DNA of 64,000 nt from Aquipuribacter nitratireducens (GTDB lineage Bacteria; Actinomycetota; Actinomycetes; Actinomycetales; JBBAYJ01), in NCBI RefSeq assembly GCF_037860835.1, contig NZ_JBBEOG010000003.1, forward strand, positions 124,001 to 188,000, given 5' to 3'. Positions 29,380-32,621 of this stretch are shown piece after piece. The notes beneath the pieces were generated by a model. It was not told the DNA's origin. It made no database searches and saw only the letters and a program-made list of their open reading frames with translations. The translations under genes were made by a program, and so were the position numbers. Each line of letters begins with the position of its first letter. Position 1 is the first letter of the stretch.

Positions 29380-30030
29380 CTGAGCGGGAGCCGGTTCCTC
29401 GAGGTCGCACCCGGCCGGGTGACCGGCTGGGTCGACCGGTACGTCGCGGCGCGCGACGGGCGCGTCGTCGCCCGCGCGGTCGCCGACGGGCTGCTGCTCG
29501 TCCCCGACGAGGGCGGGCAGGCGCACCTGCGTCTCCTGCGTCCGGAGGGCTGGTCGTCGGCGGCGGACCCGGTTGACCCGTCGGTCGTCTCCGCCCACCT
29601 CGCCGCCCACGCGGCCGCGTCGGTGCCCCTGCTCGTGGTGGCCGCTCGACGCGGTGGGTACGGGGTCGCGGTCGTCCGCGACGGGCGCGTGCTCGCGGGG
29701 AAGGTCGGCCGACGGTACGTGCAGGGAACCACCGCGGCCGGTGGCTGGTCGCAGCAGCGCTTCGCCCGGCGCCGCGGCAACCAGACCGACAAGCTCGCCC
29801 GCGACGCCGGTGCCGTGCTGCGGCAGGTGCTCGGGGCGGCGCTGCCGGTGGGGCCCGTGGCGGTCGCCGTCGCCGGCGACCGGGCCCTGGTGGAGGGCGT
29901 GCTCGACGGCTCGCCCGCCGCCGCGCTGCCGAGGCTCGGCCCGCTCGAGGTGGGGGAGCCCCGCCGCGCCGACCTCGACGAGCTCGCCGAGCGCGTGCTC
30001 GCGGTCCGCGTCACGGTCCACGACGCCTGA
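29380..30030 (+). CDS. acVLRF1 peptidyl-tRNA hydrolase, CTG start likely
   Basis: Actinobacterial Vms1/eRF1-like release factor, which frees nascent chains from stalled ribosomes. The core GRRYVQGTTAAGGWSQQRFARRR near residue 122 carries the catalytic-loop Gln residues typical of the family. The first ATG/GTG in frame is GTG 29419, but the residues before it (RFLEVAPGRV) match the family N-terminus. The best explanation is a CTG start at 29380 (CTG-AGC), eight bases after sufT; that gives 216 aa. If GTG 29419 is used the protein has 203 aa. No Shine-Dalgarno is clear for either. Confidence 0.88.
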   Translation: MSGSRFLEVAPGRVTGWVDRYVAARDGRVVARAVADGLLLVPDEGGQAHLRLLRPEGWSSAADPVDPSVVSAHLAAHAAASVPLLVVAARRGGYGVAVVRDGRVLAGKVGRRYVQGTTAAGGWSQQRFARRRGNQTDKLARDAGAVLRQVLGAALPVGPVAVAVAGDRALVEGVLDGSPAAALPRLGPLEVGEPRRADLDELAERVLAVRVTVHDA

Positions 30031-30035
30031 GGCGT

Positions 30036-30153
30036 GACTCGGGACGTAACGTCGCCCGGACCGGGACGTCCTGTCGTCGAGTGGGACGTCTTCGGGCTCA
30101 GCGGGCACTGCTGAGCCCGAGGACGTCCCAGTCGCCGTGCGGAGGTCCCAGTC
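30036..30153. repeat. Left array of 20-base repeat units
   Basis: Units of the form GACTGGGACGTC plus eight variable bases. GGGACG cores occur in plus orientation at 30041, 30063 and 30083, then inverted as GTCCCAGTC at 30125 and 30145, with 20-22 base spacing. The inverted units encode the last residues of the DUF559 gene. A matching array in opposite order lies at 31160-31263. Confidence 0.7.
30079..30133. terminator. 24-base near-perfect hairpin between convergent genes
   Basis: Arms 30079-30102 and 30110-30133 pair at 22 of 24 positions plus one G-T, around a seven-base loop. It lies between the 3' ends of acVLRF1 and the DUF559 gene and includes the latter's stop codon (30098-30100). 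It would serve as a bidirectional terminator. Confidence 0.6.
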
Positions 30154-31036
30154 CGGCGGCCACCTGCTGACGCATGAGGGTGACGAGGGCGTCGACGACC
30201 CTGCTCGGTCTCCGCATCATGACGCGGTCCACCTGGAGCACCCGCCACCCGGCCAGCCGGATCTCGTTGTGGCGGGCGCGGTCGACGGCGTACTGGCGAG
30301 GCTCGTCGTGGACCGCGCCGTCGTACTCGCACCCCACCCGCAGCTCCTCCCAGCCGAGGTCGAGCCGGGCGATCCGACGCCCGTCGAGGACGACCGGGCA
30401 CTGCGTACGGGGACGAGGCAGCCCTGCGCGGACGACGAGCAGGCGCAGCCGGGTCTCCCGGAAGGAGTCGACCCCGTCCGCGGCGTCGGCGAGCACGTCG
30501 CGCGCGGACCGCAGGCCCCGCAGGCTGCGCCAGCGGACGAGGTCGTCACGGACCTCGTGCAGCGGGAGCCCCGTCGCCCGTAGCACCGCGTCCACCCGGG
30601 CGACGCGGAGGTCGTGCGGCACCTCGGGCGTCCCCGTCGCCCGCGCGAGGTCGAAGGCTGTGCGGGACGCGCCCGTCGCGAGCCCCCAGGCGGTGCTCAC
30701 GACCTCCTCCGGACGCAGGGTGGCGAGGTGCGGGACCACCTCGGCGCGCCGGCGGATGCGGTGCGGACGGTCCATCCCGACGACGACAGGCTCGCTCGGC
30801 TCGGCGAAGCGTGCCCCCAGCGCCCACGCCGCGCTCGGGCCGAGCAGCACGTGGTCGTCGCCGTCGACGGCGCGGAAGGCGCGGACCCTGGCGCCGTGCG
30901 TGAGGGGCAGCGCCGACGACTGCACCGCCCCGTGGAGCACCTGGCGGTAGCGGGGTCCCCGGAGCGCGTCCGGTGTCTCGAGGCCGGCTGCGGCGCTGGT
31001 CCGGAAGGGCTCGCTGCTCAGCTGGCGTGCGTCCAC
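30098..31036 (-). CDS. DUF559/Vsr-like endonuclease domain protein
   Basis: A 312-aa protein of a type common in actinobacteria and rarely studied. The N-terminal two thirds resemble AbiEi-type antitoxin-like proteins (SAAWALGARF, RPHRIRRRAEVVPHL). The C-terminal ~100 residues have the DUF559 nuclease fold: RIARLDLGWEELRVGCEYDG with Asp and Glu of a PD-(D/E)XK site, then RHNEIRLAGWRVLQV. The last codons (DWDVLGLSSAR) are part of the flanking repeat. The GTG start has no clear ribosome site. Its target is unknown; defence, DNA repair and repeat processing are all possible. Confidence 0.8.
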   Translation of the reverse strand: MDARQLSSEPFRTSAAAGLETPDALRGPRYRQVLHGAVQSSALPLTHGARVRAFRAVDGDDHVLLGPSAAWALGARFAEPSEPVVVGMDRPHRIRRRAEVVPHLATLRPEEVVSTAWGLATGASRTAFDLARATGTPEVPHDLRVARVDAVLRATGLPLHEVRDDLVRWRSLRGLRSARDVLADAADGVDSFRETRLRLLVVRAGLPRPRTQCPVVLDGRRIARLDLGWEELRVGCEYDGAVHDEPRQYAVDRARHNEIRLAGWRVLQVDRVMMRRPSRVVDALVTLMRQQVAAGLGPPHGDWDVLGLSSAR

Positions 31037-31159
31037 GGCCCGAGGGTCGCCGTCTTGGCGCGGACTCCCGTGGTGCGTGGACGCCCGCCTGTGGACGACG
31101 CGCCTCTCTCTGCCGTGTGGACACGACCGCGGCCACGGCGTCCCACGCGTCGGCGCTCC

Positions 31160-31263
31160 TCGACTGGGACGACTTCGGGCTGTCCGGCGGGGCAGATCCC
31201 CGACAACGTCCCACTCGGCGGGACAACGTCCCAGTCGGCGGGAGGACGTCCCAGTCGGGGGTG
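31160..31263. repeat. Right array of 20-base repeat units
   Basis: CGTCCC cores at 31207, 31227 and 31247 define three 20-base units (31204-31263; the third is degenerate). One opposite unit lies at 31161-31171 (CGACTGGGACG). This is the order of the left array read on the other strand, so the two arrays form imperfect inverted repeats around the DUF559 gene. Stem pairing between 31161 and the array could also end the biotin operon transcript. Nothing else is seen in the gene-free stretch 31037-31270. Confidence 0.7.
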
Positions 31264-31270
31264 GGGCAGG

Positions 31271-31918
31271 TCAGTCCACGAGGCCACGCGCGGCGAGGGC
31301 GTCGCCGGTGGCCCGGGCGTGGCCCACCGCCCGGACGACCGTGGGGGTGACGAGGGCGCGGACGTCGCGGCTCCGGCCGCGGGCGCGGGCGGCGTCGCGC
31401 GCCTGGACGGCGACGTCCCACAGCACGTCGACGCTGCGGACGGCGAGGGCGAGGGTGAGGGCGACCCGGTCGGGGTGGAGGTGGGGGCCCAGCCGGGGCA
31501 GGTGCTGCAACGGGGCCACGAGAGAGGTGATCGTGTCGAGGAGCCGGTCCGTCGGCGTCGTCACCGTCACGAGGCCGGCGAGCAGCACCAGACCGAGGAG
31601 GTCGAGCACGACCTCGGCCCCTCGCCACGGCGAGCCGAGCACGACCTGGTAGACCCCCAGGACCACGAGGACGGGCGCCAGCCGCACGACGAGGCCGCCC
31701 CACACCCGGCGAGGGGTGCGGACCGCGACGTGGCCGAGCACGGCCATGACGAGCACGGCCGCCCCGAGGAGCAGTGCGACGTCGCCCGACCGGGCCGTCA
31801 CCACGACGACCACGACGACCGCGACGACGGCGAGGACCGCGAGCTTCGCGCCCGCCGGTGCGCGGTGCAGCCACGTGGTCCCCGGACGGTGGGCGGGCAC
31901 GAGGGCGGGGCGGCGCAC
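31271..31918 (-). CDS. ECF transporter T component (BioN-like)
   Basis: Energy-coupling transmembrane subunit of an ECF vitamin transporter; 215 aa with about five hydrophobic helices. The family's Ala-Arg-Gly loops are visible as QARDAARARGRSRD and at the C-terminus (ALAARGLVD). GTG 31918 lies four bases after the ATPase stop. With BioY upstream the substrate should be biotin. Confidence 0.87.
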   Translation of the reverse strand: MRRPALVPAHRPGTTWLHRAPAGAKLAVLAVVAVVVVVVVTARSGDVALLLGAAVLVMAVLGHVAVRTPRRVWGGLVVRLAPVLVVLGVYQVVLGSPWRGAEVVLDLLGLVLLAGLVTVTTPTDRLLDTITSLVAPLQHLPRLGPHLHPDRVALTLALAVRSVDVLWDVAVQARDAARARGRSRDVRALVTPTVVRAVGHARATGDALAARGLVD

Positions 31919-31922
31919 CGCG

Positions 31923-32621
31923 CTAGTCCCCGTCCATGAGCCGGCGGTACACGTCGAGCACCGGGTCCGGGGCCCCGTCGGCGACGACACGACCGGCGTC
32001 GACGACGACGACCCGGTCGCAGCCTGCGGCCAGACCGAGGTCGTGGGTCGCGAGGACGACCGGGATGTCGAGCGCCTCCACCGTCCGGCGGACCAGGCGC
32101 GTGTTGCGGCGGTCGAGCAGCGTCGTGGGCTCGTCGAGGACGAGGAGTCGCGGCCCCGTCGCGAGCACGGCGGCCACGGCGAGGAGCTGTCGCTGCCCGC
32201 TCGACAGCTCCCCGACGGGCACGTCGGCGCGGTCGGCGAGCCCGACGTCGGCGAGGGCCTGCCGGACCCGGCGGTCCCGCTCGTGCCGAGGCAGGCGGAG
32301 CCGACGCAGCGACAGGGCGACGTCCTCGGCGGGCGTCGGCATGACGACCTGCGCGTCGGGGTCGGTGAAGACGAAGCCCACGGCGGTCCGGGCGGCGGCG
32401 GGGGAGCGGGCGGGGTCGAGCGCGCCCGTCCCGGGCAGGTCGAGGACCACGCCCCCCGACGACGGGACGACGAGCGCGTTGAAGCAGCGCAGCAGCGTCG
32501 ACTTGCCCGAGCCGTTGGCCCCGACGAGCGCGACCCTGCGCTCGTGGAGCGCGAGGTCGATCCGGTCGAGCACGACGTACCCGTCCACGACGAGCCGGAC
32601 GCCGTCGAAGCGGGCGTACAC
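31923..32621 (-). CDS. ECF transporter ATPase (BioM-like)
   Basis: A 232-aa ATPase driving biotin uptake. Walker A is VGANGSGKSTLLRCF near residue 35. The Q-loop region is GFVFTDPDAQVVMPT, with the FxxxxxQ pattern of ECF ATPases; the signature is ELSSGQRQLLAVA and Walker B LLVLDEPTTLLD. I chose GTG 32621, which gives the usual short N-terminus (MYARFDGVRL); GTG 32654 is possible. It ends in TAG, rare here. Confidence 0.9.
   Translation of the reverse strand: MYARFDGVRLVVDGYVVLDRIDLALHERRVALVGANGSGKSTLLRCFNALVVPSSGGVVLDLPGTGALDPARSPAAARTAVGFVFTDPDAQVVMPTPAEDVALSLRRLRLPRHERDRRVRQALADVGLADRADVPVGELSSGQRQLLAVAAVLATGPRLLVLDEPTTLLDRRNTRLVRRTVEALDIPVVLATHDLGLAAGCDRVVVVDAGRVVADGAPDPVLDVYRRLMDGD

Follow-up and report, generated by a model that had tools for sequence, protein, structure and literature searches.

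A predicted AbiEi-Vsr-like nuclease gene between inverted cognate repeat elements in actinobacteria: a candidate REP/RAYT-like module

A nuclease gene between two inverted repeat elements

The window analysed here, a 64,000-nucleotide stretch of DNA from Aquipuribacter nitratireducens, contains a predicted nuclease gene that is bracketed by two repeat elements and flanked by an acVLRF1 release-factor-like gene and a CbiQ-type transporter gene (Table 1). Each element spans ~100 bp and consists of ~20-bp units arranged around a 57-bp palindromic core, with one element at either end of the gene. The left element begins 6 bp past the stop codon of the VLRF1 gene, and the right one ends 12 bp from that of the CbiQ gene. 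In the left element, the two arms (30056-30102 and 30110-30156) are 83% complementary. The original prediction of repeat arrays at both gene ends proved correct, its coordinates being only 3-4 bases off. So did its statement that the window holds no further copies: a search of the whole window with model R1 gave no strong third copy, the next best match scoring 22 bits compared with 77 and 64 bits for the two cores.

Table 1. Genes and repeat features at the nuclease locus (positions within the window)
Feature	Position	Strand	Description
Left neighbour, acVLRF1 release-factor-like gene	29419..30030	+	outside cassette
Left (gene 3′-side) repeat element	30037..30156		three 20-22-bp units, core palindrome, two inverted units
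Left units, plus	30037-30048, 30059-30070, 30079-30090	+	first unit (GACTCGGGACGT) degenerate, 22 bp from next
Left-element core palindrome	30078..30134	+	57 bp; 77.4 bits, model R1
Left units, inverted	30122-30133, 30142-30153		
Nuclease gene	30098..31036	-	312 aa, predicted AbiEi-like plus Vsr/DUF559-like; last codons overlap left element
Right (gene 5′-side) repeat element	31157..31259		one proximal unit, core palindrome, three distal inverted units
Right-element core palindrome	31161..31217	+	57 bp; 64.5 bits, model R1
Right unit, plus	31162-31173	+	
Right units, inverted	~31205-31216, 31225-31236, 31245-31256		
Right neighbour, CbiQ-type transporter gene	31271..31990	-	outside cassette

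The folding stability of both elements beats that of all shuffled sequences (z -6.9 for the left, -4.1 for the right). Strong folds and positions just past stop codons, often between convergent genes, would suit bidirectional terminators or mRNA 3′-end hairpins that stand by coincidence at both ends of a transferable gene. Arguing against such terminators, however, a T-run is absent after both window elements.

As originally noted, the C-terminal residues DWDVLGLSSAR are indeed encoded by units of the left element. We considered a functional role for this repeat-encoded C-terminus and rejected it in favour of likely overprinting: the tail is poorly ordered in the structural model and missing in an 81%-identical orthologue, so the overlap looks incidental.

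The repeat family in the source genome and its congeners

Tandem-unit and covariance searches of the 3.8-Mb source genome (G000) revealed ten cores, two at the window gene and eight (8/10) in solitary elements. All are intergenic, between tandem or convergent genes; judged by open reading frames, none of the ten appears between divergent genes. The units are spaced by 20 bp, and the cores come in two lengths, 57 and 47 bp, which differ by about one helical turn. The original prediction had held that repeats found without the gene at unrelated gene ends would speak for plain terminators. Such solitary copies are indeed the majority here, but the second half of that expectation was not borne out, as solitary copies in Micromonospora are sharp-ended, keep a fixed geometry and have a distribution tied to the nuclease type (see below). 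The dispersed copies thus behave as members of the same family as the gene-flanking ones, not as plain terminators.

In the longest array of the family (G000:C2:72402-72546, L040), six direct units lie ahead of the core or at it and one or two follow, with spacers so nearly identical that the array looks recently expanded. We also considered a pair of elements on contig C8 as a cassette; it brackets arsenate-resistance-like genes with no nuclease gene and was rejected as probably marking two gene ends.

One congener (G002) carries a syntenic, 81%-identical orthologue together with both elements; two of its four cores lie at this orthologue and two between rplA and rplJ. In the other (G001, 4.3 Mb), both cores with E<1e-3 flank its 53%-identical homologue, which occupies another site. 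This same site holds a different paralogue (about 41% identical) in G000 and G002, where tandem arrays of a different unit, GTCTGCGTTTCTGTCGACG, stand on both sides of it. With one site thus holding another paralogue and other repeats in different species, repeat type follows protein type, not position. Further G000 paralogues have repeats of their own, those at C12 being hairpins and those at C5 direct arrays; none were seen at the paralogues at C4:213k and C2:609k.

Five dispersed G000 elements are missing from the orthologous gaps of G002 and G001, and in two of these five gaps G002 has another repeat family, GGTCGTGGGACGTCGCGCACC. The original prediction had looked to presence or absence with clean junctions; presence does differ between species, but the junctions were unreadable because intergenic divergence is too great. 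The GGTCGTGGGACGTCGCGCACC family lies at positions 300-440 of L236 and 430-540 of L240 in G002, in which its nuclease gene was not found. The gap between the VLRF1 and CbiQ genes of G001 (L226, G001:C12) is occupied not by the cassette but by an unrelated gene of a secreted, lectin-like type, and was for this reason rejected as an empty site. Outside the genus, model R1 has order-wide matches at E near 1e-5, which may be due to chance.

Paired palindromes beside related genes across actinobacteria

A scan of named genomes yielded 80 homologous loci, 72 of them complete; these are not phylogenetically independent, many coming from related Micromonospora species. Across the 80 loci, palindrome density is 1.26/kb upstream and 1.72/kb downstream of the gene versus 0.08/kb elsewhere, that is, about 16-fold and 22-fold enriched, respectively. 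Palindromes stand on each side of the gene in 30/72 complete loci versus 0.17% of 1190 shifted control windows, a paired arrangement of the kind that the original prediction proposed to look for in related actinobacteria; in 17/72 loci neither side has a strong palindrome. Lineages with palindromes on both sides include Micromonospora, Cellulomonas, Oerskovia, Luteimicrobium and Catellatospora, and the palindromes usually carry a lineage-specific motif. In 29/74 cases the two ends resemble each other above the 99th percentile of 590 control pairs, with end sequences differing between lineages. A chance association is excluded by the genome-wide model search and the shifted-window controls.

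Some loci have more elaborate arrangements. Downstream of the gene, Micromonospora endolithica (L186) and Cellulomonas aerilata (L122) have three to four near-identical hairpins, regularly spaced at about 100-170 bp. A contig of an Acidobacteria MAG (L152) carries a homologue flanked on either side by hairpins that match each other (TTGACACGTGCATC...); its place in another phylum reflects either transfer or a binning error.

Replaceable cassettes and solitary elements in Micromonospora

One chromosomal locus of Micromonospora is occupied by a type-A, type-B or type-D cassette depending on the species, and each type comes with its own repeat. Comparing L153 with L193, the flanks are 94% and 95% identical and the genes 72%, and the similarity ends at the neighbours' stop codons, outside the repeats. 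Placed on the protein tree, repeat type changes only 2 times (0/500 shuffles as few), compared with 6 times on the flank tree, where 16% of shuffles are as good (p=0.16). Since repeat type tracks the protein tree and not the flank tree, gene and repeats behave as one replaceable cassette. Many lineages carry gene and repeats jointly, the two are exchanged as a unit at a fixed locus, and repeat sequence tracks protein type; the original notion that they form one element is well supported far beyond the window, by the congeners as well as by many actinobacterial lineages. The exchange itself could have taken the route of ordinary homologous recombination through the flanks. In Micromonospora musae (L164) the cassette is a mosaic, its upstream element being of type B and its downstream element of type D.

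Type-A flanking elements are asymmetric, with the CGAACA arm facing the gene and the CGATCC arm facing outward at nearly all loci; set in this consistent orientation, the two elements constitute inverted terminal repeats. Each of six type-A genomes contains 5-10 copies of motif A, as opposed to 0-4 in the others tested, and motif B occurs only in type-B genomes and in none of the six type-A genomes. Dispersal of solitary copies is seen here, too: 17 solitary type-A elements with sharp 78-79-bp ends (CAWGATC...GATCWTG) sit in unrelated intergenic surroundings, none with a homologous nuclease gene within about 2 kb. Despite their sharp ends, these elements showed no target-site duplication. Ten of the 17 are found in genomes whose cassette at the Micromonospora locus is of type B or D; they could be what is left of an A cassette that was lost, or belong to a type-A gene elsewhere. 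As for empty sites, the species compared are too diverged, and the one collinear Micromonospora contig ended too early.

The gap between the arms is 12 or 13 bp in 55/55 type-A elements, although 4-34 was allowed, and the arms covary at few positions only, for which reason we rejected base-pair covariation as proof of an RNA hairpin. Beside the GTAGTGG core, the covariation mostly reflects two subfamilies, T being found mostly in upstream elements and A in downstream ones. Taken together, the fixed spacing, the tandem or direct arrays at some paralogues and the lack of broad arm covariation favour recognition as double-stranded DNA over an RNA or cruciform hairpin. The same fixed arm distance, scarce covariation and non-hairpin arrays, along with a repeat sequence that is specific to the nuclease type and not to the host, also count against the terminators considered above and make them very unlikely.

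Predicted architecture of the protein

The window protein alone falls below the Pfam cut-off, so its original designation as a DUF559 protein holds at the level of the family: DUF559 is matched by 36/45 aligned members, REase_MTES_1575 by 44/45 and AbiEi_1 by 25/45. An HUH family was not among the Pfam matches of the protein family. In an AlphaFold2 model built with 45 sequences (pLDDT 92.7), residues 191-293 of the predicted structure match the I-Bth0305I catalytic domain (Z 10.0), NGO0050 (Z 9.6) and Vsr (Z 7.2), and residues 1-186 match AbiEi (6y8q; a moderate Z 7.7) and Rv2827c (1zel; Z 6.5). Four active-site residues, E194, D226, E237 and H243, are invariant in 45/45 sequences. We thus predict a protein with a DNA-binding half resembling the AbiEi antitoxin and a nuclease half resembling Vsr and the homing endonuclease I-Bth0305I.

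AbiEi proteins bind ~23-bp inverted repeats and did not bind each other's promoters (PMC7319586). Divergence between the Micromonospora types peaks at residues about 99-122 and 147-178 in the AbiEi-like half and is lower in the nuclease, a pattern that would suit a recognition role for the AbiEi-like half. AbiEi and Rv2827c both bind paired inverted repeats in their own promoters (PMC7319586), which raises the possibility that the repeats are operators of an AbiEi-like autoregulator, acting at its own promoter and on genes near the dispersed copies, with a separate role for the nuclease and no mobility. The upstream element, ~120-220 bp before the start codon, and the fixed spacing expected of double-stranded DNA binding would fit. 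An equal element in inverted orientation downstream of the gene would not, nor would dispersed copies at gene 3′ ends, with apparently none of the ten in G000 between divergent genes, nor elements that vary between species at orthologous sites and have sharp ends when solitary. In addition, the neighbours at the window locus are the VLRF1 and CbiQ genes, and no AbiEii nucleotidyltransferase toxin gene adjoins the nuclease gene; this speaks against the operator reading and means that the cassette is not a type IV toxin-antitoxin pair. All in all, we consider operators unlikely.

Another view is that the cassette carries a nuclease of the defence or restriction type and is exchanged at hotspots, in which case the repeats would be recombination boundaries or self-recognition marks. 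PADLOC profiles for AbiEi and restriction systems match weakly, the cassette locus is variable between close species, and a Caulobacter Vsr-like protein triggers a DNA damage response when ScmA cytosine methylation is missing (PMC12907096). However, the cassette contains no methyltransferase or partner gene, and defence alone does not explain the dispersal of multi-copy repeats; this reading appears quite improbable.

A candidate selfish module with an unrelated enzyme

In our assessment, the balance tips slightly toward a selfish module comparable to REP/RAYT, that is, a nuclease gene between two inverted cognate repeat elements, built around an unrelated enzyme. As with REP/RAYT (TnpA-REP), the gene is bracketed by inverted palindromic repeats, solitary repeats are intergenic, and repeat type is tied to gene type. 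RAYTs are HUH Y1 transposases, kin of IS200/IS605 (PMC6006769, PMC8266576). The protein described here, in contrast, is accounted for in both halves as AbiEi-like plus a PD-(D/E)XK Vsr-like nuclease and is not HUH, and repeat copy number is low, at about 2-10 per genome.

Other known systems share single parts of this arrangement. I-Bth0305I (EDxHD family), which scores highest among the structural matches to the nuclease half, is a phage homing enzyme whose DNA-binding part differs; here, the nuclease is joined to an AbiEi-like half, with multi-copy repeats on both sides. AbiEi of type IV toxin-antitoxin systems shares the fold of the N-terminal 186 residues as well as binding of inverted repeats with cognate specificity, whereas here a nuclease domain follows and the repeats are found at both ends and dispersed. 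Vsr and DUF559 proteins such as Caulobacter VsrA have the nuclease fold and active-site residues in common with our protein, which differs in having no linked cytosine methyltransferase; cognate flanking repeats are not described in the Vsr/VsrA sources consulted. Within the open-access literature (subscription papers and bioRxiv lying outside), which we covered for DUF559 genes with palindromes, Vsr/REP and AbiEi fusions, we found no earlier report of DUF559-type genes with cognate flanking repeats.

Under the favoured selfish-module reading, the predicted nuclease protein likely recognizes its cognate repeats, with the AbiEi-like half binding the units as double-stranded DNA. From the domain fold and the cognate association, we infer that the nuclease acts on the repeats: the Vsr/I-Bth0305I-like half would nick or cut at or near the units, and host repair or recombination would then copy the cassette or single elements into other sites, much as has been proposed for REP sequences and RAYT. 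The repeats would thereby double as recognition sites and as the non-autonomous form, and by binding the upstream element the protein may autoregulate its gene as well. Several points speak against this reading: some paralogues seem to lack repeats, 17/72 loci are without strong palindromes, the musae cassette has two repeat types, no target-site duplication was seen, and ordinary recombination through the flanks could exchange the Micromonospora cassette. Searches for a phage or full-length plasmid carrying the cassette gave no convincing match, so there is no obvious vehicle.

Actinobacteria commonly encode DUF559-type proteins, whose role is not settled; a cognate repeat partner provides them with a likely DNA target. 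Our broader proposal, which we hold tentatively and rate somewhat below even, is that these are undescribed, widespread selfish modules in which an AbiEi-Vsr nuclease and its double-stranded DNA site arrays spread and seed solitary repeats without HUH transposases. If this is true, the REP/RAYT way of life, in which a domesticated or selfish nuclease lives with its own repeats, evolved repeatedly from enzymes that are not related, and the proposal would also account for where a large set of intergenic palindromes without annotation comes from.

On a minor note, the ends of several Micromonospora contigs lie no more than about 150 bp from a repeat element (G299 C16, C41 and C50; G297 C128 and C346; G301 C26), as if the elements break assemblies.
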